10,394 bases of DNA from Porphyrobacter sp. Lineage in GTDB: Bacteria > Pseudomonadota > Alphaproteobacteria > Sphingomonadales > Sphingomonadaceae. The stretch's first letter is position 1, and every line of letters starts with the position of its first letter. The translations under genes were made by a program, and so were the position numbers. Below the pieces are notes generated by a model. It did no database searches. It was not told the DNA's origin and saw only the letters and a list, made by a program, of their open reading frames with translations. The stretch covers positions 1-10,394 of the forward strand of contig JAKFWB010000077.1 in the NCBI GenBank assembly GCA_021732945.1. The letters run 5' to 3'. This document shows, one piece after another, positions 1 to 10,394 of this stretch.

Positions 1-1044
1 GACAGAACGGATGGTGCGGAATTCCCCGTGCGGGCCATCGGGATCGCTGACTTCGATGCCCAGCACCTTGGCCTGCTCGGTGCCAAGCACTTCAGCGCTG
101 TCGAGGACGGGGGAATTGGGGACTTCCAATCGCGTCAATTCCGCGGTCCATACGGCGCGCGGGCGGCGCGCGAAGATCGGGGCGAGGAAGGCGACCACAT
201 CTTCGTAATGCGCGATGCGTGCGTCACGGCTAGCGAAGGCGGGAAGCTGAAGCATATCTGGCTGGCCAACGGCGGTCGCAAGGTTCTCCCAGAACTTGGG
301 CGGCGACGACATGTGCAGCGCCAGCCACTTGCCGTCGGCGCATTGGAACACATAGCTCTGCGACACATGCGGGCGGCTATATGGCCCCATCACCTGATCG
401 GCGGAAAGCAGGTGGGTGAAATCATCGAGATTGAAGTGGCACATCGCCTCAAACATTGACGTTTCGACCACCCGGCCCTTGCCCGTTTCGTGCCGCTCAT
501 TCAGCGCAGCAAGGATGCCCAGCGCGGTGTAGAACCCGGTCATGGCGTCGGCAATCGCGGGGCCGACGACGCGGGGATGCTGCGGGTTGACCAGCAGCCG
601 CAGAAAACCGCTGGCGGCCTGCGCCACGGTATCAAATGCGGGGCGATCCCGCTCTGGCCCCTCGCTGCCGAAGCCCGAGATTGAGGCATAGACCAGCGCA
701 GGGTTGATGGCCTGCAGCCGCGCCGCATCGACGTTGAGACGGTCTGCCACGCCGGGGCGGAAGTTCTGGATGAACACGTCAGCGGTCGCGACCAGCTGAT
801 CAAGGGTCGCTAGGTCTTCGGGCTGCTTGGGATCGATGGTGATCGACCGCTTGTTGCGGTTATAGGTCTGGAAATGCGGGGCATAGAGCCCGCCCTTAAA
901 CGATCGGAACGGATCGCCGGTAACCGGTTGTTCGACCTTGATGACATCTGCGCCCAGATCAGCCAGCAGCATCCCGGCGGCAGGGCCAGTGATGAAGGTG
1001 CCCATTTCGAGCACGGTAACGCCTGCGAGAGGTCTTGCAGTCAT
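1..1044 (-). CDS. Family III (CaiB/BaiF) acyl-CoA transferase, C-terminus cut off by window edge
   Basis: This gene probably transfers CoA between carboxylic acids in the cytosol and activates a catabolic substrate. The frame begins with ATG at 1044 (MTARPLAGVTVLEMGT) and stays open for 348 codons to base 1, so only the last few dozen residues are missing compared with the usual 380-400. The N-terminal stretch EMGTFITGPAAGMLLADLGA followed by VIKVEQP is the typical nucleotide-binding start of the family. Asp166, in GPAIADAMTG (codon at 547-549), sits where family III enzymes have the aspartate that forms the acyl-anhydride intermediate (Asp169 in formyl-CoA transferase). The ribosome site (GGGATCAGG) is weak. 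It diverges from the citryl-CoA lyase-like gene across a 91-bp gap holding a tandem palindrome, so the two are probably co-regulated. The substrate cannot be read from the sequence. Confidence 0.9.
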   Translation of the reverse strand, partial: MTARPLAGVTVLEMGTFITGPAAGMLLADLGADVIKVEQPVTGDPFRSFKGGLYAPHFQTYNRNKRSITIDPKQPEDLATLDQLVATADVFIQNFRPGVADRLNVDAARLQAINPALVYASISGFGSEGPERDRPAFDTVAQAASGFLRLLVNPQHPRVVGPAIADAMTGFYTALGILAALNERHETGKGRVVETSMFEAMCHFNLDDFTHLLSADQVMGPYSRPHVSQSYVFQCADGKWLALHMSSPPKFWENLATAVGQPDMLQLPAFASRDARIAHYEDVVAFLAPIFARRPRAVWTAELTRLEVPNSPVLDSAEVLGTEQAKVLGIEVSDPDGPHGEFRTIRSV

Positions 1045-1090
1045 CAGCCTGATCCCATCTTGTATCTTGACATTACAATGATACTATATT

Positions 1091-1124
1091 CTTCGCATAC
1101 CGAAATCAACTTCGAATATCGAAA
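1091..1124. promoter_or_regulatory. Tandem palindromic operator between divergent genes
   Basis: Two 15-bp units, CTTCGCATACCGAAA (1091-1105) and CTTCGAATATCGAAA (1110-1124), differ at only two positions. Each is an inverted repeat TTCG-N5-CGAA, and their centres are 19 bp apart, about two helical turns. They lie 12-45 bp upstream of the start of the plus-strand lyase gene and 47-80 bp upstream of the minus-strand CoA-transferase gene. This layout suits a dimeric regulator binding twice and controlling both directions. The unit loosely resembles 15-bp operators of IclR-type regulators, but no regulator gene lies nearby in the window, so the protein is unknown. Confidence 0.55.
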
Positions 1125-1135
1125 AAGGGAGCTCC

Positions 1136-1921
1136 ATGCGCATCGGCAAACTGGATAACGCCGCCACTTCGATCTGCACTTCGGATGCGACGAGCATCAC
1201 CGTGCGCAGACTGGACCTGTGCTCAGCGGTCATCGGCCATGTCGATTTCACCAGCTATTTCTGGCTGCTGGTGACCGGCGCCATGCCATCGCGACCGCAA
1301 AAGGCTTTGGCCGACGCGGTGCTATGCGCAATTGCCGAACATGGCCTGGTCCCTAGCGTCGTCGCGGCCCGAATGACCTATGCCGCCGCGCCCGAAGCGT
1401 TCCACGGCGCGGTTGCCGCCGGGCTACTCGGGTGCGGCTCGGTGGTGCTTGGAAGCGCTGAGGCCGCTGGCAGGTTCTATGCGGCGGTAGTCGCGCAGGC
1501 AGAGGCCGAGGGCACCGATCCAAACGAAACGGCCACATCAGCCATCCGCGAGTTGCGCAGTCAAAAACAAGCTATCCCAGGCTTTGGCCACCCGCAACAT
1601 TCGGATGGCGATCCACGCGCACACCGGCTGCTCGCTCTCGCCAAAGAGCATGGAATGGAAGGAAGGCATATTGCCATGCTGCGCACCATTGAGGCCGCTC
1701 TGCCTGCAGCCATCGGTCGGTCGCTACCGATCAACGTCAACGGCGCCATTCCGGCCGTCATGCTCGATGCGGGCTTCCCGCTCGCTGCCTTGAAGGGCAT
1801 CTCGCTGCTCGCTCGCACCGCCAGCCTGATCGCGCATCTGCAGGAGGAAACTGAGCGGCCCATCGGCTTCATCATGTCGGGCGCGGCGGCGGAGCGGATC
1901 GGTTTCGAGGCTGAAGAATAG
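1136..1921 (+). CDS. Citryl-CoA lyase-like protein (citrate synthase superfamily)
   Basis: The 261-residue product is a short member of the citrate synthase / citryl-CoA lyase / ATP-citrate lyase C-domain superfamily, which makes or cleaves citryl-CoA-like thioesters. PGFGHPQHSDGDPRA (148-162) is the superfamily's CoA and oxaloacetate-binding loop, with His152 in the catalytic loop. AFHGAVAAGLLGCGSVVLG (88-106) matches the segment around the first catalytic histidine, and LPINVNGAIPAVMLDAGFP (197-215) the third catalytic segment. In that segment the usual catalytic Asp (NVD in citrate synthase and ATP-citrate lyase) is Asn202. At 261 residues it lacks much of the large domain of true citrate synthase (about 430), as in stand-alone citryl-CoA lyases. 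ATG at 1136 follows AGGGAG at a good distance. It is paired divergently with a CoA-transferase, which suggests catabolism of a CoA-activated acid. The true substrate is unknown. Confidence 0.8.
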   Translation: MRIGKLDNAATSICTSDATSITVRRLDLCSAVIGHVDFTSYFWLLVTGAMPSRPQKALADAVLCAIAEHGLVPSVVAARMTYAAAPEAFHGAVAAGLLGCGSVVLGSAEAAGRFYAAVVAQAEAEGTDPNETATSAIRELRSQKQAIPGFGHPQHSDGDPRAHRLLALAKEHGMEGRHIAMLRTIEAALPAAIGRSLPINVNGAIPAVMLDAGFPLAALKGISLLARTASLIAHLQEETERPIGFIMSGAAAERIGFEAEE

Positions 1922-1929
1922 TCAGACCC

Positions 1930-2127
1930 ATGCAATCGAGGGCTCTATCAGAGCAAATGCACCACTGGCGGCGATCGCGCCATAGGGTGAAGTCGCTACA
2001 GAAGTTCGCCTCGGTCCATGCCAACGTCCACAACCACTTCAATCTCGACCGCCACCTCACCGACCGCCAGACCTACAAGACCGCCCGCTCAGCCGCATTG
2101 GCTGAGTGGCAGAACCTCATGGCCTGA
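1930..2127 (+). pseudogene. 3' remnant of an IS6-type transposase gene
   Basis: Only the C-terminal end of a transposase remains. The segment VKSLQKFASVHANVHNHFN, then RHLTDRQTYK and RSAALAEWQ, ending at TGA 2125-2127, resembles the C-terminus of IS6-family DDE transposases of alphaproteobacteria. The upstream part of the frame (1930-1980) matches nothing I recognise, and the DDE catalytic domain is absent. The fragment starts 8 bp after the lyase stop codon, so the insertion or later deletion trimmed right up to the end of that gene. The family call rests on recalled motif similarity. The exact IS is not determined, and no clear terminal inverted repeat is visible. Confidence 0.6.
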
Positions 2128-2281
2128 GCCGTCTCTGGGTAAGGGCCAACTCTGCCAATCGGAGACGGGTTGCGATTAGACTGGCAGCTCCGCCACCACC
2201 CCTAGGTCGCGTTGACATTCAGGATTTCCGTTGGGCTGATTTTCCGATCCAAGCTGCTGGCTGGAATGTAGGTCAGCGTGG

Positions 2282-2467
2282 ATGGATCGACAGGCACTGA
2301 GCGACGACGTGGGTGCGAGGATTGAGCCGCACTTTCCTGGCAAGGCGGGCGATCCGGGGCGCAATTGCGGTGACAGCTGGCTGTTTGTCGAGGCGACACT
2401 GTGGCTGGCCCGGTCAGGCGCGCATTGGCGGGTTTTGCCACGTGCATTTGTTCAGTGGAACATGTGA
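2282..2467 (+). pseudogene. 5' remnant of an IS5-family transposase gene
   Basis: The 61-codon frame MDRQALSDDVGARIEPHFPG, then KAGDPGRNCGDSWLFVEA and LWLARSGAHWRVLPRAFVQWN, is the N-terminal domain of an IS5-family (IS427/IS1031-like) transposase. The normal family continuation after the WN (a TVFKRFRRW-like stretch) is missing: homology breaks at about 2463 and the frame stops at 2465-2467. The upstream flank from about 2205 (GGTCGCGTTGACATTCAGG) looks like the outer end of such an element, so the surviving piece is probably about 2205-2463. Several residues differ from the common family form (for example SDDVGARIEPHF), which suggests an old, decaying copy. It cannot transpose without its DDE domain. 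Confidence 0.7.
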
Positions 2468-2545
2468 CGTGCTCCCCCGATTGTTACCTGACAGATGTAG
2501 AGTCCGGCTCCTTCATGATGGTTGGTTGAGGTGATGGCAACCTGT
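2465..2545. other. Unassigned short segment after the IS5 break, possibly another IS end
   Basis: Directly at the breakpoint of the IS5-like fragment the sequence reads TGACGTGCTCCCCCGATTG. A TGACNTGCTCCCC-like start resembles terminal repeats of some IS3-family elements, but no matching opposite end or transposase lies in the window. The rest of the segment has no gene I can support. It may be a leftover tip of a third element that interrupted the IS5 copy, or ordinary intergenic DNA. Confidence 0.25.
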
Positions 2546-2573
2546 CCCGGCGCATGCTTGGGCCCGCGCCGGG
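2546..2573 (-). terminator. GC-rich hairpin downstream of the acyl-CoA dehydrogenase operon
   Basis: CCCGGCGC (2546-2553) pairs perfectly with GCGCCGGG (2566-2573) around a 12-base loop. It lies 13 bases past the TGA of the minus-strand acyl-CoA dehydrogenase gene, the usual place for a terminator. There is no T-run after the stem in the direction of transcription, so it is at best an incomplete intrinsic terminator or an RNA 3'-end stabilising stem. Confidence 0.4.
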
Positions 2574-2586
2574 ATAACCGATCCGA

Positions 2587-3717
2587 TCACGCCAAGGCGA
2601 CGTGGCGCTTCAGGTGGTGGTCGACATTGCCGAACTCGGCATCGAAAATGGTGAGCCGCTTGAAGAAGTGGCCGATGGCGTATTCGTCGGTCACGCCGTT
2701 GCCACCGTGGATCTGCACCGCTTCCTGCCCGATCAGCCGCGCCGCTTGTCCAACGCCGACCTTCGCCGCCGAGACCGCGCGCTTGCGCTCGACCTCGTCC
2801 GAACTCAGCCGCAAAGTCGCGAGATAGGTCAGCGAGACTGCCTGCTCGTAAGCCGTGTACATATCGACCATGCGGTGCTGGAGCACCTGGAAGCTGCCGA
2901 TGGGCACGCCGAACTGCTTGCGCTGGCGCGAGTACTCCACGGTCATCGCATGGGCGACCTTCATCGCTCCGCAGGCCTCGGCGCAGATCGCGGCGATGGC
3001 TTCGTCGGTAACGAGTTCAATCAGCGCCAGCCCTTCGCCCTCGACGCCGATCAGCGCGTCAGCGGGGATGGCGACGTTCTCGAAATAGACTTCCGACGCG
3101 CGGCGGCCATCGACCGTTTCATAGTCGCGGGTGGTGATGCCGGCGGAATCCTTTGCGATTACAAAGACCGAGACGCCCGCCCGGTCGCGCCGCTCACCGC
3201 CGGTGCGCGCGGTGACGATCAGGTGGCTGGCCCAGGGTGCACCGATGACGACCGCCTTGTGGCCGTTCAGCACCCACCCCGCACCGTCCTTCTTGGCGGT
3301 GGTTTCTAGATCGGCATAGTCAAACCGGCCCTTGGGTTCGGCATAGGCGAAGGCGAAGACGGCGCTGCCCGCCACGATCCCGCCGATATGCTCTTCCTTC
3401 TGCGCGGCCGTTCCGCCATGCTTGAGGAACCCGCCGGCACACACGACTGTGGGCACAAAAGGCTCGATTACCAAGCCCTTACCGAACTCTTCCATGATCA
3501 CCATCGCATCGACCGCACCGCCGCCAAAGCCGCCATCGGCCTCGGAGAAAGGCATGCCGAGGATGCCCAATTCGGCGAGCTGCGCCCACACTTCGGGCCG
3601 CCAGCCTGCCCCGCTGGCGATCGCCTTGCGGCGCGTTTCCCAGTCATATTGCTCACGCACCAGCCGCGAAAGCCCGTCGCGCACCATGCCTTGTTCTTCG
3701 GTGAAGTTGAAATCCAC
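2587..3717 (-). CDS. Acyl-CoA dehydrogenase, small-subunit type
   Basis: This is a flavin enzyme of 376 residues that introduces a 2,3-double bond into an acyl-CoA thioester. It starts with GTG at 3717 after GGGAGAG at 5 bases. The N-terminal helical domain (MDFNFTEEQGMVRDGLSRLV) is followed by the middle beta domain with FAYAEP (124-128) and the C-terminal helical domain with YSRQRKQFGVPIGSFQ (262-277) and QIHGGNGVTDEYAIGHFFKR (335-354). The C-terminus resembles the small subunit of pimeloyl-CoA-type dehydrogenases. Glu239 (VTDEA) lies near where isovaleryl-CoA dehydrogenase has its catalytic Glu254. There is no glutamate at the MCAD-type C-terminal position. The gene follows the larger dehydrogenase gene after 24 bp. 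Such adjacent pairs often form heterotetramers, as described for steroid side-chain and pimeloyl-CoA dehydrogenases. The substrate is not determined. Confidence 0.9.
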   Translation of the reverse strand: MDFNFTEEQGMVRDGLSRLVREQYDWETRRKAIASGAGWRPEVWAQLAELGILGMPFSEADGGFGGGAVDAMVIMEEFGKGLVIEPFVPTVVCAGGFLKHGGTAAQKEEHIGGIVAGSAVFAFAYAEPKGRFDYADLETTAKKDGAGWVLNGHKAVVIGAPWASHLIVTARTGGERRDRAGVSVFVIAKDSAGITTRDYETVDGRRASEVYFENVAIPADALIGVEGEGLALIELVTDEAIAAICAEACGAMKVAHAMTVEYSRQRKQFGVPIGSFQVLQHRMVDMYTAYEQAVSLTYLATLRLSSDEVERKRAVSAAKVGVGQAARLIGQEAVQIHGGNGVTDEYAIGHFFKRLTIFDAEFGNVDHHLKRHVALA

Positions 3718-3741
3718 GAATTCTCTCCCGTCTTCAGCCGT

Positions 3742-4938
3742 TTACAGGCCGAGGATCATCTTGGTGATGATGTTGCGCTGAATTTCGTTCGATCCGCCAT
3801 AAATCGAGGTCTTGCGCATGTTGAAATAGGTCGCCGCGGCGTGTTGGGCATAGTCGGGGCCGACGGGGTGCTAGTTGGAGCCATTATCGTTCGAAATTCC
3901 GCCGTGGTAGGGCGCGCCATAGGTGCCGACCGCTTCCAGCGTCAGTTCGGTCAGGCGCTGCTGGATTTCGGTGCCCTTGATCTTGAGGATCGAACTTTCC
4001 GGCCCCGGCCCCTTGCCCGCCTGCTCACCGGCCAGCGTGCGCAACTCGGTGATTTCGAGCGCGGCGAGATCGATTTCGAGTTGGCTCACCTTGCGGGCGA
4101 AATCGAAATCCTTGATCAACGGCGCGCCGTCATAGCTCTCGTTCGCGGCGATTTCGCGCAGCTTTTCAACGCCCCGCTTCGACCGCGCCACACCCGCAAT
4201 GCCAGAGCGTTCGTGGGCGAGCAGGAACTTGGCATAGGTCCAGCCCTTGTTCTCCTGGCCCACGAGGTTCTCGACCGGCACGCGCACGTCGGTGAGCCAG
4301 GTCTCGTTGACCTCGTAGCCGCCATCCAAGAGCTTGATCGGCTTCACTTCCACCCCCGGCGATGTCATGTCGACTAAGATGAAGCTGATGCCTTCCTGCG
4401 CCTTGGCGGTGGGATCGGTGCGGCACAGGAAGAAGCCCCAATCGGCGTGCTGGGCGAGCGTCGTCCAGGTCTTCTGGCCGTTGATGATGTAGTGATCGCC
4501 GTCACGCACCGCGGTGGTCTTGAGGCTGGCGAGGTCGGACCCTGCGCCGGGCTCCGAATAGCCCTGACACCACCACACTTCGCCGCTGACGATACCGGGC
4601 AGGTGGCGCGCCTTTTGTTCGGCATTGCCAAAGGTATAGATCACCGGGCCGACCATCGACACGCCGAAGGGCAGCGGCATGACAGTGCTGGCGCGGGCGT
4701 TTTCTTCCGACCAGATGTAGCGCTGCGTCGGGGTCCAGCCAGTGCCGCCATATTCGGTCGGCCAAGCCGCGACCGACCAGCCCTTCTTGCCGAGGATCTT
4801 GTGCCAGGCGAGAAAGTCCTCGCGGCTCATGTCTTCGCGCATCCCGAAATCGGCCAGATGCTTGGGATAGTTTTCGGCAATGAAGGCGCGGACTTCGTCG
4901 CGGAAGGCCTGTTCTTCGGGGGTGAATTCGAGGTTCAT
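3742..4938 (-). pseudogene. Acyl-CoA dehydrogenase, large-subunit type, interrupted by an in-frame amber codon
   Basis: ATG at 4938 follows GGAGAG. The first 355 codons encode a standard acyl-CoA dehydrogenase: EEQAFRDEVRAFIAENYP at the N-terminus, EYGGTGWTP (62-70), the flavin/substrate loop GYSEPGAGSDLASLKTTA (126-143), INGQKTWTT (152-160), and AHERSGIA (241-248), whose Glu243 aligns with the IVD/LCAD-type catalytic glutamate. Codon 356 is TAG (3871-3873). The same frame then continues with HPVGPDYAQ, YFNMRKTSIYGGSNEIQRN and ends ITKMILGL with TAA at 3742-3744, the expected family C-terminus. Full length would be 398 residues, normal for the family. As written, translation stops 43 codons early and removes the last helix of the C-terminal domain. 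It could be a recent nonsense mutation, a sequencing error or suppression. A product ending at 3871 would be 355 residues. Confidence 0.85.
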
Positions 4939-5050
4939 GGGATGATCTCTCCGCCTGTGGTGTTCTGCTTTGCGATACGTCTTGTCACGCCCGGCGGACT
5001 CGGAAAAGAGGCAAATGCAGCGCCAATTTGGAAAGCCGCCGCGCAGTAGG

Positions 5051-5074
5051 GGAATGTTTCACGTGAAACATTCC
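5051..5074. other. parS: parS centromere-like site (ParB-binding palindrome)
   Basis: Bases 5055-5070 read TGTTTCACGTGAAACA, identical to the canonical bacterial parS consensus. The symmetry extends without mismatch to 24 bp (5051-5074, from GGAAT to ATTCC). It lies in the 274-bp non-coding gap between the acyl-CoA dehydrogenase operon and the monooxygenase gene. ParB dimers load at such sites as CTP-dependent clamps, and with ParA they segregate the replicon. Chromosomal parS sites cluster near the origin, so the window probably lies in an origin-proximal region or on a large replicon that uses the chromosomal ParB type. No parA or parB gene is in the window. Confidence 0.85.
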
Positions 5075-5100
5075 TCAGAGCCATTCTACCAGCGTTCAAA

Positions 5101-5136
5101 CCGGGTTTAACTGGCCCAAAAGGGCGTCAAACCCGG
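5101..5136 (-). terminator. Two-tier hairpin downstream of the monooxygenase gene
   Basis: CCGGGTTT (5101-5108) pairs perfectly with AAACCCGG (5129-5136). Inside, GCCC (5114-5117) pairs with GGGC (5122-5125) around an AAAA loop. It lies 77 bases beyond the stop codon of the minus-strand monooxygenase gene and just before the parS site in that direction. Only a short TTT follows the stem, so it may be a weak intrinsic terminator that keeps operon transcription from running across parS. Confidence 0.45.
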
Positions 5137-5212
5137 AGCAGATTCGCGCAAAGGGGGTCACTATGGCTGACCGACATTTTTGGCAGGGCGGGGATTGAAT
5201 CGATTGCCGGTC

Positions 5213-6298
5213 TCACATCTCCAGCGGACCGTGCTGAATATGCGGCAACACATGACGAGCGAACAGGTCGGCCTCTTGCGCATGGGGATAACCTGACAGA
5301 ATGAAGGCCTCGATCCCCTCCGCCTGATAGGCGCGCAGCTTGGCAAGCACCTGATCGGGCGTGCCGACGATCGCCGCCCCGCAGCCGGACCGTGCACGGC
5401 CAATGCCGGTCCACAGGTTTTCCTCGACGAAACCGTCGCCATCGGCGCCGCCGCGCAGCTCCTGCTGGCGCTGAACACCGTAGTTCTTGGCATCAAGGCT
5501 TTTCTCGCGGATCGCGCGGCCCGCTTCGTCATCGAGCTTGGACAGCAGCCGGTCGGCATAGTGGCGCGCCTCGTCCTCGGTCTCGCGCACGATCACGTGG
5601 GCGCGGTAGCCGAACTTGAGCGTGCGGCCATAGTTGGCAGCGCGCGCTTTCAGGTCGGCGATATTCTCGCGCACCTTGTCCATCGTGTCGGGCCACATCA
5701 GATAGACATCCGCCGCCTCGGCCGCACATTCGCGCGCTTCGTGGCTGAGGCCGCCGAAATAGAACGGCGGGCATTTGCCATTGAGGGTGGTGATGCGCGG
5801 CGGATCGAGCTTGAGCTGGTAGAACTCGCCGTCGAAATCGAGATGCTCGCCGTTCAGCAGCGTCTTGACGATTGTCATGATCTCGGTGCCGCGGCGGTAG
5901 CGGGGTGCGCTCTCGATCTTCTCGCCCGGCATGTCGGAAGAGATGATGTTGACGTTCAATCGCCCGCCGGTGCCGTTCGCATTGGGGCCAAGGATGCGGT
6001 CGAGTGTCGCAATCCGGCGTGCCAGCTGCGGCGGCCAGTCCTCGCCCATGCGGGTCGCCCACAGCAGCTTGATGCGCTTGACCTGCGTGGCGACGGCGGC
6101 GGCGAAGATCGTGGTGTCCACGCCCAGCTGATAGCCCGAGGGCAGCAGGATATTGTCAAACCCGCCCTCTTCGGCGCGCAACACGATGTTGCGACAATGC
6201 TCCCAGCTCGATTGCAGATAGGGATCGGGGACGCCGAGGAATTCATAATCATCGTCGCACAGCGCGGAGAACCACGCGATTTCGCATTGTTGGGTCAT
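5213..6298 (-). CDS. smoC: SsuD-like FMNH2-dependent monooxygenase, probable sulfoquinovose monooxygenase
   Basis: The 361-residue protein belongs to the bacterial luciferase-like (LLM) fold and closely resembles alkanesulfonate monooxygenase SsuD, which cleaves C-S bonds with FMNH2 and O2 to release sulfite. Residues matching the SsuD active site occur with a constant +6 offset: Arg232 and His234 in FGYRAHVIVRETEDEA (SsuD Arg226/His228), Arg303 (Arg297) and Tyr337 in SGYPH (Tyr331). The SsuD Cys54 region is LLPSGYQLG here, without Cys. No signal peptide is seen, so it is cytosolic. ATG at 6298 follows GAGGAAAG at 7 bases. Because it lies downstream of a sulfoquinovosidase and an AKR, I infer that it oxidises sulfoquinovose to 6-dehydroglucose plus sulfite, as in the sulfo-SMO pathway. 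It would need a separate flavin reductase, which is not in the window. The family is sure. The substrate is inferred from context and could be another sulfonate. Confidence 0.85.
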   Translation of the reverse strand: MTQQCEIAWFSALCDDDYEFLGVPDPYLQSSWEHCRNIVLRAEEGGFDNILLPSGYQLGVDTTIFAAAVATQVKRIKLLWATRMGEDWPPQLARRIATLDRILGPNANGTGGRLNVNIISSDMPGEKIESAPRYRRGTEIMTIVKTLLNGEHLDFDGEFYQLKLDPPRITTLNGKCPPFYFGGLSHEARECAAEAADVYLMWPDTMDKVRENIADLKARAANYGRTLKFGYRAHVIVRETEDEARHYADRLLSKLDDEAGRAIREKSLDAKNYGVQRQQELRGGADGDGFVEENLWTGIGRARSGCGAAIVGTPDQVLAKLRAYQAEGIEAFILSGYPHAQEADLFARHVLPHIQHGPLEM

Positions 6299-6322
6299 AG
6301 ATTTCTTTCCTCAACCACAAAC

Positions 6323-6412
6323 CCGTTCACCCTGAGCTTGTCGAAGGGTCGTCCTTTTCTTCGCAGGGTGCAGGAAGGAAGAACGAGGCTTCGGCAAGCT
6401 CAGCCCGAACGG
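6323..6412. repeat. Imperfect inverted repeat between AKR and monooxygenase genes
   Basis: The left arm, 6323-6346 (CCGTTC, then CTGAGCTTG, then TCGAAG), and the right arm, 6389-6412 (CTTCGGCAAGCTCAG, then CGAACGG), are inverted copies matching at 20 of 24 positions. The bases inside the arms (CGTCCTTTTCTTC near 6350 and GAAGGAAGAACG near 6374-6385) also nearly pair, giving one long stem. This resembles a dispersed intergenic repeat built on GAGCTTGTCGAAGG that I know from sphingomonad genomes. It occupies most of the 124-bp gap, so in the operon transcript it forms a strong hairpin before the monooxygenase ribosome site. It may act as a terminator, an RNA-processing site or an expression modulator. 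Confidence 0.7.
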
Positions 6413-6422
6413 AGATTAAATC

Positions 6423-7337
6423 CTAGGGAAGCGGCACACCCCGCGCCGCCACCAGCACCGCGTACCAATCCGTTCTTGTCCAGCGCACCGAGAGCGCCTG
6501 CGCCCCTTCCGCGATCCGCGCAGGATTCTGCGATCCGATAATCGGAATGATCCCGGCGGGATGCGCCATCAGCCAGCTATAGGCGGCGACCGTGCGCGAG
6601 ACGCCTTGCGCCTCGGCTACCGTGTCCAGCGCAGCGGCGACCGCCTTGTCGTGCTCCGTTTCGGGCGCGGCCAGACGCCCGCCACCCAGCGGCGACCATG
6701 CCAGCGGGATCATGCCGAGCATCATCGCCTGATCCAGCTCGCCGTTCTCGAAACAGTCGATCCGCAGCGGGCTGATCTCGGGCTGGGTCGAAACCAGCCT
6801 GTTGCCGAGGAAGTGGCTAAGCGCGGCGGTCTGGGCCATCGTGAAGTTCGACACGCCTAGCGTCCGCACCTTCCCGCTCGCCACCGCATCATCGAGCACG
6901 CGCGCCACTTCTTGCGGGTGGGCGAGGATATCGGGGCGGTGGATCTGCCACAGGTCCACCGAGTCCACCTGAAGGCGGCGCAGGGAATCGTCGATCGCCT
7001 TGCGCAGATAATCCGCGCTCTGATCATAGGGCAGCGGCGGCAGGATCCCGCCCTTGGTCGCGAGCACCATCCGGCCCCGCAGCGATGGATCAGCAGCCAG
7101 CACCTCGCCGAGCAGCGCCTCGGCATCGCCAAACCCGCCCGCCCCGTCGAAGCCATAAATGTCGGCGGTGTCGAGGAAGGTGATCCCGGCATCCAGCGCC
7201 GCGTGGACCAGCTTGGCCGCATCGGCAGCGGTGCGGCCATCCTCAGCCAGCCGCCACATGCCCCAGGCCAGCGGGGATACGGCAATGCCGCTCGCACCAA
7301 GTGTGCGGGTTGCGGGAGGCAGGGGCAGTTCACTCAT
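6423..7337 (-). CDS. smoB: Aldo/keto reductase, probable 6-dehydroglucose reductase
   Basis: The 304-residue (alpha/beta)8-barrel NAD(P)H-dependent oxidoreductase is of the YdhF-like type. The AKR catalytic tetrad is complete: Asp56 and Tyr61 in FLDTADIYG, Lys95 in VLATKGG and His133 in LWQIHRPD. The cofactor-binding loops GVSNFT (161-166), LAWSPLGGGRL (212-222) and PIIGSQNPARI (265-275) are present. ATG at 7335-7337 touches the TAG of the upstream regulator gene with no gap, after AGAGGA, so translation is coupled. In the sulfo-SMO pathway an AKR (SmoB) reduces 6-dehydro-D-glucose, the product of the monooxygenase, to glucose, and the position here fits that role. Family membership is certain. 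The substrate is inferred from its neighbours. Confidence 0.85.
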   Translation of the reverse strand: MSELPLPPATRTLGASGIAVSPLAWGMWRLAEDGRTAADAAKLVHAALDAGITFLDTADIYGFDGAGGFGDAEALLGEVLAADPSLRGRMVLATKGGILPPLPYDQSADYLRKAIDDSLRRLQVDSVDLWQIHRPDILAHPQEVARVLDDAVASGKVRTLGVSNFTMAQTAALSHFLGNRLVSTQPEISPLRIDCFENGELDQAMMLGMIPLAWSPLGGGRLAAPETEHDKAVAAALDTVAEAQGVSRTVAAYSWLMAHPAGIIPIIGSQNPARIAEGAQALSVRWTRTDWYAVLVAARGVPLP

Positions 7338-8357
7338 CTACGGGTTCCTCTTTGGTGGGGCGACCGAGGCGCGCTCCACAAGCGTGTGGGGCAGGCGTTT
7401 GTGGGTAATGTCCCCGCCTGCAATCAGGATTTGGGTGGCGGTGCGCGCCAGATCGGCCATCGGCTGGCTGATCGTCGTCAGCGGTGGCCAGACGGTGCGG
7501 GCGAGCGTCGTATCGTCAAAGCCTGCGACCGAAAGCTCAGCCGGCACATTGATCCCGCGGTCATGCGCCACGGCGAGCACGCCTGCGGCCATATCGTCGT
7601 TTGAAGCAAAGATTGCGGTGGGGCGCTCAGGCAGATCGAGCAGGGCGTTCGCCCCCGCCACCCCGGAATCGAAGTCAAACTCGCCATCGGCCACCAATTG
7701 CGGTTCAAACGGGATACCCACCCGGTCGAGCGCGCGGCGGTATCCGAACAGGCGGTCGTCCGACGCCATGTGGTTGGTGTGGCCTTTGATGAACCCGATC
7801 CGGCGGTGGCCTGCGTTGATCAAGTGCGTGGTCATGTCATCGGCGGCCTGCGCGTCGTCCATGAACACCGATGATGTCAGCGCGTGGTTGGTCCCCGGCG
7901 AGATCCGCACAAACGGCACGTCCATCCCTTCGAGCGCGCGCAGCACCGGGTCGCAATCGGTGACGGGGGAGGACAGGATGATGCCATCGACATGCGTCTC
8001 ACTCACCAGCCCGCGCACCTGATCGCCGACGCGCGGATCGGCGACGTCCACGGGTTGCGCCAGCAGGCGGATGCCGTTTTCCTGGCACACTTCCCAGCAG
8101 CCCTTCTGGATCTGGAACATGTAATAGGGGCTGTGATTGTCATAGATCAGCGCGACCTGATTGGACTTCGCGCCCGACAGGATGCGTGCCGCGACCGAGG
8201 GGCGATAGTCGAGATCAGCCATCGCGGTCTCCACTCGTGCGCGCAGTTCTGCGCTGACATAGGGGTGGCCGTTCATCACGCGGCTGACAGTCTTCACCGC
8301 CACGCCCGCGCGGGCGGCGACGTTCCTGATATTTGGGCGGATGTTGTCGCGGCTCAT
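7338..8357 (-). CDS. LacI-family transcriptional regulator
   Basis: The 339-residue one-component sugar-responsive regulator has an N-terminal helix-turn-helix (residues 10-30, IRNVAARAGVAVKTVSRVMNG) and the hinge-helix region YRPSVAARILS (51-61). The periplasmic-binding-protein-like effector domain runs from about 67 to 335, with typical VDGIILSSP (123-131), GHRRIGFIKG (183-192), AIFASNDDMAAGVL (248-261) and LSVAGFDD (275-282). Its ATG overlaps the stop of the GH31 gene by four bases (ATGA), and its TAG is followed directly by the ATG of the AKR gene, so it is made as part of the operon. I infer that it represses the cluster and responds to sulfoquinovose or its glycoside. The target operator is probably upstream of the GH31 gene, outside the window. 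I saw no convincing LacI-type operator inside. Confidence 0.92.
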   Translation of the reverse strand: MSRDNIRPNIRNVAARAGVAVKTVSRVMNGHPYVSAELRARVETAMADLDYRPSVAARILSGAKSNQVALIYDNHSPYYMFQIQKGCWEVCQENGIRLLAQPVDVADPRVGDQVRGLVSETHVDGIILSSPVTDCDPVLRALEGMDVPFVRISPGTNHALTSSVFMDDAQAADDMTTHLINAGHRRIGFIKGHTNHMASDDRLFGYRRALDRVGIPFEPQLVADGEFDFDSGVAGANALLDLPERPTAIFASNDDMAAGVLAVAHDRGINVPAELSVAGFDDTTLARTVWPPLTTISQPMADLARTATQILIAGGDITHKRLPHTLVERASVAPPKRNP

Positions 8358-10394
8358 GCAGCGAGGCTTTCAAACAACGGCGCGAAGGCGCTGGACGGGT
8401 GGTAGAACACCGGCGGCTCGCCAATCGGTGCGGGGACATCGTGCCAGCCGGGGGCATAATCCCGGCTGCTCCAGACGTGCCGCCAGACCATATCCGCCGC
8501 TCCGGGCAGATAGACCCGCCGCACTTCCGCCCCCTCATCGATCACCGGTGCCACCATCAGATCGGCACCATAGAGGTATTGATCCTGAATGGTGAAGGTT
8601 TCGCGGTCATCGGGATAGTGCAGGAACAGCGCCCGCTGGGCTGGCAGGCCGGTCGCCTGCGCCTCGGCCGCCAAGTGCTTCACGTAAGGCGCGAGCGCTT
8701 CGTGAACGCGGCTCCAGCGCACGAAGCCTGCGATCAGTTCGGCGCTGGAATCGATCTGGAGGTTGTCGTCCGGGCGGTTGCCCTCATGCGTCCGCATCAC
8801 CGGGCTGAACGCACCCAGCTCATACCAGCGGAGCAGCAATTCCGCGGTACGGATGTTGCCGTGCAGGCTGGTATAGCCGCCGACATCGGAATGGCTGAAC
8901 GCGTTCCCCACCAGCCCAGACGAAAGCGCGGCGGTGATCACCGTGCCGATACCGTCATGGCGGCTGAAGTCGACCGATTGGTCGCCTGCCCACAGCAAGG
9001 GGCAATGCTCCTGCACCCCGGTATATCCCGCGCGCATGAAGAACAGCGCGTCACCCGTGCGGCCGCGCGCTGCGATCGCAACGGCGTTGACCTTGGCCCA
9101 GCGGACCGGCCACAGATTGTGCTCAAGCATCGGATCGCCCCTGTGCAGCCGCAGATCGACCGGCAGATATTCGCCGAAATCAGCCATCCAGCCATCGAGA
9201 CCAATATCGAGCATCCGCTTGCCGATGATCTCTTCGGAAAACCAGTCGGCTGCGGCGGGATTGGTGAAATCAACCACACCTGCATCAAATTCGCCGAAAT
9301 CGACCAGATAGGGCGCGTCGCTATCCAGTTGCAGCGCCAGATAGCCCAGCGCCGCCGCTTCGGCATATTGCGGGCCGTCCGCTGCGAGATAGGGGTTCAC
9401 ATAGCCAAGGAAGCGGATGCCGCGCGCTTTCAGCGCCGCGATCCGGGCGGGCAGATCGGGATAGCGGGCAGGGTTCCACTGCCAGTCCCAGAACAACCGG
9501 CGGCCAAAGCTGGTCTGGCGGATACCGACCCAGTCCTCGCACCACAGGCCCGATACCGCCGCGCCCGCTGCGATCAGCGCTTCGAGCCGGGCGAAGCTAT
9601 TGGCGCCGTCCTTCAGCCCCACAATCGCCCCGCCGATGGCCCAATCGGGCAAGGCGCGGGCCGCCCGAAAGCGTCCGGCGAGCAGCCCCACCAATTCTGC
9701 TGGCGAGGACGCCGCGGCGATGGCCATCGTGACATTGCCGGTCCAGCAATGCCACTCCATCTGCCCGGGCTGCGACAGGTCGATTTCGGCGTAGTAGCCC
9801 TCTTCCCCTGCCTCCCATCCAGTCAACGACCAAAAGCAATTGGCCGAGGACAGAATGGTAGGTTCGGGATAATTGGTGGTCCAATAGTCGCCGCCCGCAA
9901 AGGAGCCATCGCTGCTCATCAGATCAGTGAGCGGCGTGCCCGGTTCGCGGCCCACGCCCGGTTCGCTGGTCCACATCGGCCAGCGCCGGCCATTGAGCGC
10001 GAGATGGCTCATCTGCTCGCCGCCGCCCCAGAATATCTCGTCAGGCTCGGTCACCAGCCGCATAGAAATTCGGTCAAAGCCGGGGTAGGTCGTATATGCT
10101 GTCAACAGCGGCCCCGGCTCTGCGGATAGCAAGGTTAACGCGATGGTCAGCTCGCTCGGACCGCCGGGCTCGCAGGCCAGACCGATGGTGCTGAAACCCT
10201 GGTCCGGGTCCATGTGGTTATCGACCACATGGCACGGGATGCGCGACTCGCGCGAGGTATCCGCCAAGCGGAAGTTCCCGCGCACCATGGTGATGGCCGG
10301 ATCACCCTTGGCGATGCGGAACGCCGGGGCCGCGACCCGATGGCGCAGGATCACACGATCCCCCAGCAGCAGATCAAAGCCGCCGCCGCCATCC
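8354..10394 (-). CDS. smoI: GH31 sulfoquinovosidase (YihQ/SmoI type), 5' end outside window
   Basis: This retaining alpha-glycosidase probably releases sulfoquinovose from sulfoquinovosyl glycerol or sulfolipid head groups. The frame is open to the window edge. GTG at 10354 is an internal or alternative start, and 13 in-frame codons upstream (DGGGGFDLLLGDR) still align with the N-terminus of E. coli YihQ, so the start is just outside. Counting from that GTG: the nucleophile is Asp392 in DGWMADFGEYLP (YihQ Asp405), and the acid/base is Asp458 in WAGDQSVDF (Asp472). The sulfonate-recognition set is Lys248, Glu273 (CEDWVGIR), Arg286 and Trp289 (FGRRLFWDW) and Tyr494 (VGGYTS). This is the KERWY pattern known from the Agrobacterium sulfoquinovosidase, where E. 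coli has QQRWY. Ordinary alpha-glucosidases lack the Arg/Trp pair. It heads an operon with a LacI regulator, an AKR and an SsuD-like monooxygenase, which supports this substrate. Confidence 0.9.
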   Translation of the reverse strand, partial: DGGGGFDLLLGDRVILRHRVAAPAFRIAKGDPAITMVRGNFRLADTSRESRIPCHVVDNHMDPDQGFSTIGLACEPGGPSELTIALTLLSAEPGPLLTAYTTYPGFDRISMRLVTEPDEIFWGGGEQMSHLALNGRRWPMWTSEPGVGREPGTPLTDLMSSDGSFAGGDYWTTNYPEPTILSSANCFWSLTGWEAGEEGYYAEIDLSQPGQMEWHCWTGNVTMAIAAASSPAELVGLLAGRFRAARALPDWAIGGAIVGLKDGANSFARLEALIAAGAAVSGLWCEDWVGIRQTSFGRRLFWDWQWNPARYPDLPARIAALKARGIRFLGYVNPYLAADGPQYAEAAALGYLALQLDSDAPYLVDFGEFDAGVVDFTNPAAADWFSEEIIGKRMLDIGLDGWMADFGEYLPVDLRLHRGDPMLEHNLWPVRWAKVNAVAIAARGRTGDALFFMRAGYTGVQEHCPLLWAGDQSVDFSRHDGIGTVITAALSSGLVGNAFSHSDVGGYTSLHGNIRTAELLLRWYELGAFSPVMRTHEGNRPDDNLQIDSSAELIAGFVRWSRVHEALAPYVKHLAAEAQATGLPAQRALFLHYPDDRETFTIQDQYLYGADLMVAPVIDEGAEVRRVYLPGAADMVWRHVWSSRDYAPGWHDVPAPIGEPPVFYHPSSAFAPLFESLAA

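Follow-up and report, generated by a model that had tools for sequence, protein, structure and literature searches.

A predicted oxidative sulfoquinovose operon in Porphyrobacter and a conserved candidate operator shared with its sphingomonad relatives

The contig JAKFWB010000077.1 of a Porphyrobacter sp. metagenome-assembled genome (MAG), 10,394 nucleotides long, was analysed at its full length and is called the window in the following; it is the entire contig C44 of a fragmented assembly (594 contigs, 74% complete). Its second half carries four genes for a glycoside hydrolase of family GH31 (sulfoquinovosidase, SmoI/YihQ type), a LacI-family regulator, an aldo-keto reductase (AKR, SmoB type) and a luciferase-like monooxygenase (LLM, SmoC type). 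Sulfoquinovose, the predicted substrate, is made by plants and algae in huge amounts. A preliminary description of this DNA had proposed a joint oxidative sulfoquinovose pathway, which is supported by PDB rankings, residues, the SmoC tree and synteny. We consider it very probable that the four genes belong to a sphingomonad regulon for sulfoquinovose of the sulfo-SMO (sulfo-ASMO) type, of which they make up one arm.

All four open reading frames (ORFs) were confirmed as uninterrupted on the minus strand, at the positions first described, and the proteins score above the Pfam cut-offs for PF01055 with PF21365, PF00356, PF00248 and PF00296. The regulator gene indeed lies between the GH31 and AKR genes, as had been noted; it overlaps the GH31 stop by 4 bp and abuts the AKR gene (0 bp), and hence looks co-transcribed with the enzyme genes. 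Promoter and terminator scans of positions 5000-10394 stayed at the level of shuffled sequence (1 versus a mean of 1.1, and 2 versus 3.0, respectively). The spacer between SmoB and SmoC holds a dispersed repeat, the listed MAG matches of which (Table 1) include the self-match and both-strand duplicates.

The GH31 protein reaches 787 bits against NCBIfam PRK10426 (cut-off 553), an entry named alpha-glucosidase which we take to be YihQ, and its top PDB match is 5ohy (747 bits), presumably the Agrobacterium sulfoquinovosidase. The KERWY sulfonate-recognition set reported before is complete in the frame of 679 amino acids (K261, E286, R299, W302, Y507), and both catalytic Asp are kept (D405, D471); the key positions were chosen as residues which we assume to be important in the Agrobacterium enzyme. 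This residue evidence concerns the GH31 protein of the window, and in the ORF family as a whole (90 rows) up to 10 rows deviate at any one key position. An alpha-glucosidase or a xylosidase was rejected on the PDB ranking and the key residues, and the cluster appears to include the sulfoquinovosidase that is expected of a sulfo-SMO/ASMO member. Beyond the right end of the window the reading frame extends into MAG contig C407, by 11 codons to a GTG or by 20 to an ATG.

The sulfoquinovosidase of the window is also an outlier. It is about 70% identical to the enzymes of Erythrobacter relatives, which are themselves mostly 76-90% alike, whereas SmoC and LacI of the window are 97-98% and about 95% identical to their Erythrobacter counterparts. 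Only locus L041 (94%, partial) has a similar enzyme. In the sulfoquinovosidase tree the window and L041 stand on a long branch beside the Erythrobacter group, unlike in the LacI tree; a gene swapped in from another genus was considered but not adopted.

The AKR matches 7bbz and 7bby best (185 and 184 bits), which we take to be SmoB, and D56, Y61, K95 and H133, presumably the catalytic tetrad, are intact, in agreement with the SmoB identity put forward earlier. A predicted SmoB/SquF-type AKR is thus found adjacent to the SmoC gene. The LLM protein ranks 7olf (367 bits) and 7oh2 (360 bits), presumably the crystallised SmoC enzymes, above 7jv3 (200), the SsuD entries 1nqk and 1m41 (189) and the dimethylsulfone monooxygenase 8t0u (96); the PDB labels of 7olf and 7oh2 are methanesulfonate sulfonatase and alkanesulfonate monooxygenase. 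It stays below the NCBIfam cut-offs for SsuD (TIGR03565, 248/518 bits) and for the dimethylsulfone monooxygenase SfnG (TIGR04021, 134/383 bits).

In an LLM tree of 24 rows, the kind of comparison with SsuD that the preliminary description had called for, the two SsuD rows are separated from the other 22 with a support of 100/100. The window falls inside an 8-row sphingomonad clade (99/100), and 7olf and 7oh2 lie in a separate 5-row clade (99/100) together with proteins of Rhizobium sp. SL42, Ruegeria and Emticicia; the LLM genes of Rhizobium sp. SL42 and Ruegeria adjoin AKR and flavin reductase genes, and the Emticicia protein sits on a long branch. The SsuD active-site residues noted before are present, but all five occur in 24 of 24 rows compared, E. 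coli SsuD among them; they are therefore uninformative on the substrate and were dropped as evidence. Further relatives from a homologous-protein search (best 120 of 7999 scored) contributed little. Neighbourhood, score ranking and tree nevertheless discriminate in favour of the SmoC type that had been claimed, and ranking, cut-offs and tree point to the SmoC/SquD-type FMN-dependent monooxygenase expected of a sulfo-SMO/ASMO locus.

Table 1. Features of the window, with positions and the basis of their assignment.
Feature	Position	Strand	Remarks
Sulfoquinovosidase GH31 (SmoI/YihQ type)	8354-10393	-	5'-open, start beyond the right end of the window; PRK10426, 5ohy, residues
LacI-family regulator	7338-8357	-	PF00356 and PF13377 above cut-off; candidate repressor of the regulon
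SmoB/SquF-type aldo-keto reductase (6-dehydroglucose to glucose, predicted)	6423-7337	-	PDB ranking 7bbz/7bby; tetrad
Spacer, 124 bp, with dispersed repeat copy	6299-6422	.	59 listed MAG matches
SmoC/SquD-type FMNH2-dependent sulfoquinovose monooxygenase (LLM), predicted	5213-6298	-	PDB ranking, cut-offs, tree
Pimeloyl-CoA-type acyl-CoA dehydrogenases, two	2587-3717; 3871-4938		
Citryl-CoA-lyase-like gene	1136-1921	+	
Class III CoA transferase	1-1044		

Conservation was followed in 80 named loci, the best of 236 found with the LLM protein and hence a sample of close relatives; among these, the LLM gene is closest to those of Porphyrobacter and Erythrobacter (98%). Matches to all four proteins are found in 74 loci, and 72 of the 80 (72 of the 74 with all four) keep the same order and strand with gaps below 350 bp. 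The grouping of the four minus-strand genes is thereby more than a chance neighbourhood, and the gene order, earlier seen as a variant layout, is the usual one in close sphingomonad relatives. The two exceptions in order are L041, a mirror-image contig, and L066, where the sulfoquinovosidase match is in two pieces. Six loci are without a piece: L078 and L084 are rearranged, L085 has no sulfoquinovosidase match, and the contigs of L092, L106 and L107 start inside the cluster. The sulfoquinovosidase gene has a divergently oriented TonB receptor gene as its neighbour in 70 of the 80 loci. Among 298 genomes sampled from the family of the host, 78 are SmoC-positive (LLM match with E <= 1e-80). The named records extend the likely trait to Erythrobacter, Porphyrobacter, Blastomonas, Sphingomonas and Sphingopyxis.

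Some of these loci deserve a separate description. In L041 (positions 1-10242) the LacI, SmoB, SmoC and dehydrogenase genes are followed by an inverted duplicate, which is probably an assembly artefact. Novosphingobium sp. MD-1 (L078, 813-11083) has SmoB and SmoC, no LacI match, and a sulfoquinovosidase gene 6 kb off on the opposite strand; the 15-bp element described below is absent there within 2 mismatches, and L084 is similar. On a plasmid of Rhizobium sp. WSM4643 (L143, 1-13059) a SmoC-like LLM gene, 70% identical, follows a LacI gene. Its surroundings contain genes for an ABC importer, an alpha-glucosidase, an SDR protein, a gluconolactonase, an aldolase and a dehydratase, and no annotated AKR in this stretch; the gene set is reminiscent of a sulfo-ED cluster.

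Further parts of the system were sought in the MAG with the corresponding region of a complete related genome (G260, locus L112) as probe, which led to two short contigs. C407 encodes a TonB-dependent receptor as well as the beginning of an MFS permease, and the first 178 bases of this contig equal the last 178 of the window at 172 positions; the two contigs therefore probably adjoin, the differences being perhaps strain variation. C248 encodes a partial glycerol-3-phosphate dehydrogenase (GlpD), an FMN reductase of PF03358 (presumably the SsuE family), a DHBP-synthase (RibB-like) protein and a sulfite-oxidase-like molybdopterin oxidoreductase (PF00174) with an N-terminus (LTRRALIAG) resembling a Tat signal. 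In G260 the divergent series reads TonB receptor, MFS, YeiH, GlpD, FMN reductase, RibB-like protein and molybdopterin oxidoreductase. The YeiH protein of L032 is under its NCBIfam cut-off (86/233), and the counterpart in L061 passes Pfam PF03601 (202 versus 24.5). In many other sphingomonads GlpD, FMN reductase, RibB and/or glycerol kinase genes directly follow SmoC, with the parts shuffled. This series of partner genes suggests a diet of sulfoquinovosyl glycerol and a flavin supply dedicated to the monooxygenase.

It had been noted that no ABC importer is present. This holds for the window, which in this respect does not resemble an Agrobacterium-type smo locus; an importer need not be missing from the host, however, and the TonB receptor and MFS permease on C407 are probably the importer next door. 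A flavin reductase of the SmoA or SsuE type is likewise not encoded in the window, and the PF03358 protein of C248 is a candidate for this role.

Counting of 8-mers in the gaps between receptor and sulfoquinovosidase genes exposed a 15-bp element, TGTCAAGCGGTGTCA. The retrieved DNA includes the divergent gap for 70 of the 80 named loci; 67 of these contain the element without mismatch and 3 contain it with a single mismatch, and the runner-up 15-mer occurs in 18. The MAG has a single exact copy, at positions 291-305 of C407. Exact copies, one each, are found in 25 of the 298 family genomes, all of them SmoC-positive (25/25, versus 0/220 SmoC-negative genomes); the reversed pattern, used as a control, occurs in 2 of 298. 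In 23 of the 25 the element and SmoC share a contig, at a distance of no more than about 5 kb, and in the remaining two (C407 and contig C149 of G271) it lies between TonB-receptor and sulfoquinovosidase genes. No exact copy is present in the remaining 53 SmoC-positive genomes. In 47 of them the LLM gene is just 67-76% identical to that of the window, and of the other six the four inspected (L116, L117, L119, L120) carry the element with one mismatch.

Second sites, TGTCNNGCGGTGTCAT, occur 14 times in the 1.49 Mb of the 80 named loci, in 13 cases next to MFS/YeiH and in one case in the interval from SmoC to GlpD; the reversed pattern is absent from this DNA. None was seen in the MAG, the assembly of which is without the YeiH/MFS gap. 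Copies of the 15-mer with two mismatches (six further in the MAG versus 2 for the reversed control) were left out of the evidence, and among the near-palindromes counted in 71 receptor/sulfoquinovosidase gaps, none was common to two gaps.

The LacI helix-turn-helix domain (PF00356) scores 60 bits against a cut-off of 27, and its recognition segment reads AVKTVSR or SVKTVSR in 16 inspected loci that bear the motif. In four loci without the site (L085, L126, L127, L128) the segment is SIKTVSRV followed by LNKE or INNE; since these four also differ in layout, the correlation is only suggestive. We propose that TGTCAAGCGGTGTCA is probably the operator of the LacI protein of this operon.

The steps of the pathway, its transport and the binding of the regulator are what we infer from gene identities established by homology, from gene order and residues, and from the conserved DNA element. 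Sulfoquinovosyl glycerol would probably enter through the TonB receptor and the MFS permease and be split by the sulfoquinovosidase into sulfoquinovose and glycerol. SmoC, provided with reduced flavin by the FMN reductase of the partner gene group, would oxidise sulfoquinovose at C6 to sulfite and 6-dehydroglucose, and SmoB would convert the latter to glucose. Glycerol would be used via GlpD (plus GlpK in some relatives), and sulfite may leave by the YeiH-type exporter and then be oxidised by the exported molybdopterin enzyme. LacI would probably keep both divergent arms repressed via TGTCAAGCGGTGTCA as long as no pathway sugar is bound to it.

On balance we lean towards the view that LacI is a sulfoquinovose-responsive repressor which, via TGTCAAGCGGTGTCA and TGTCNNGCGGTGTCAT, controls a regulon common to many sphingomonads. 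This regulon would be a separately assembled counterpart of Agrobacterium smo and comprise TonB/MFS uptake, sulfoquinovosidase, SmoB, SmoC, its own flavin supply (FMN reductase and RibB), glycerol use, and sulfite export with oxidation outside the cytoplasm. Several points weigh against the explanation as a whole, the pathway included. The compared genomes are related, so that conservation counts are not independent events, and SmoC shares about 50% identity with the group that includes the crystallised enzymes (51% with Rhizobium sp. SL42); its clade and theirs are distinct, in a tree where support is poor for 13 of 21 inner branches. The link to C407 consists of an end overlap with 6 mismatches and synteny, C248 is placed near the cluster by synteny alone, and YeiH was not found in the MAG, where matches to the G260 probe skip the YeiH part of the query. 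Finally, the palindrome formed by the 15-mer is imperfect, and TTGACA occurs on the opposite strand.

The last point leads to the alternative that survives best, namely that the 15-mer is no LacI operator but serves as a -35 element in front of the TonB-receptor gene or is bound by a different regulator. A part of its conservation could indeed be due to a -35 box. Such a box would not, however, hold all 15 bases constant in 67 of 70 loci, nor does it fit the 14 second sites in the named loci against none for the reversed pattern, and we regard this alternative as possible but doubtful. It is improbable that the pathway is correct but normally acts on a different sulfoquinovoside or sulfonated sugar, so that the regulon responds to a different inducer. 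The distance of SmoC from the crystallised enzymes and the Rhizobium SmoC-like protein beside sugar-oxidation genes speak for this, but the sulfonate-binding set of the GH31 protein is intact and Novosphingobium assimilates 13C-sulfoquinovose (PMC13372026). That the LLM protein is a sulfur-scavenging monooxygenase for alkanesulfonates, methanesulfonate or dimethylsulfone, placed beside sugar genes by accident, was rejected as highly improbable, since the shared fold, the five residues and the PDB labels that favour it are outweighed by the missed SsuD and SfnG cut-offs, the separate SsuD branch and the constant company of sulfoquinovosidase and AKR genes in the named loci.

The sulfo-ASMO pathway (SquD, SquF) of Novosphingobium aromaticivorans DSM 12444 was reportedly presented by Liu et al. 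in 2021, and the smo cluster of Agrobacterium tumefaciens is said to go back to Sharma et al. in 2022. Compared by description, the former resembles the window in belonging to Sphingomonadales, in the two reactions predicted for the window and in a YihQ-type sulfoquinovosidase, via which that cluster was found (PMC9594981, PMC12890257). It is said to be without an SsuE-type reductase, whereas the MAG of the window has the FMN reductase on C248. A review reports the pathway from N. aromaticivorans (PMC9594981), and a further paper names Novosphingobium as the main assimilator of 13C-sulfoquinovose in mangrove samples and predicts the pathway in related genomes, scored positive when both SmoB and SmoC are present (PMC13372026). 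Neither the pathway nor its occurrence in Sphingomonadales is new; the gain therefore lies in regulation, transport and distribution, the additions being the 15-mer, the genes for flavin and sulfite, and the range of genera. In the openly licensed literature no paper was found on the LacI regulator, the 15-mer element, the TonB receptor, the flavin and sulfite genes or the genus range. The 15-mer offers one DNA word that marks loci of this kind, and the uptake, flavin and sulfite genes are named as candidates.

Agrobacterium smo shares with the window the sulfoquinovosidase, SmoC and SmoB, with glucose and sulfite as products (predicted for the window). It has an ABC importer in place of the TonB receptor and MFS permease that appear to serve the host of the window; unlike smo, the window has the LacI gene inside the operon, and its SmoC is at about 50% identity to the crystallised group. 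E. coli SsuDE is alike in the LLM fold, the five checked residues and reduced flavin from a PF03358-type partner, but SsuD stands on its separate branch, its cut-off is missed, and the window is without ssu transporter genes. On plasmid pLA3 of Novosphingobium pentaromativorans US6-1 (NZ_CP009292.1) a TonB receptor gene is divergent from alpha-glucosidase, LacI, AKR and LLM genes, which keep the order of the window, and the 15-mer is present without mismatch, as on C407. Unlike the window, this plasmid has GlpD and glycerol kinase after SmoC, and its annotation is generic.

Positions 1-4938 of the window hold a separate CoA-ester gene set, different in kind from the sulfoquinovose genes. Acyl-CoA dehydrogenase genes follow SmoC in many, not all, Erythrobacter/Porphyrobacter loci.

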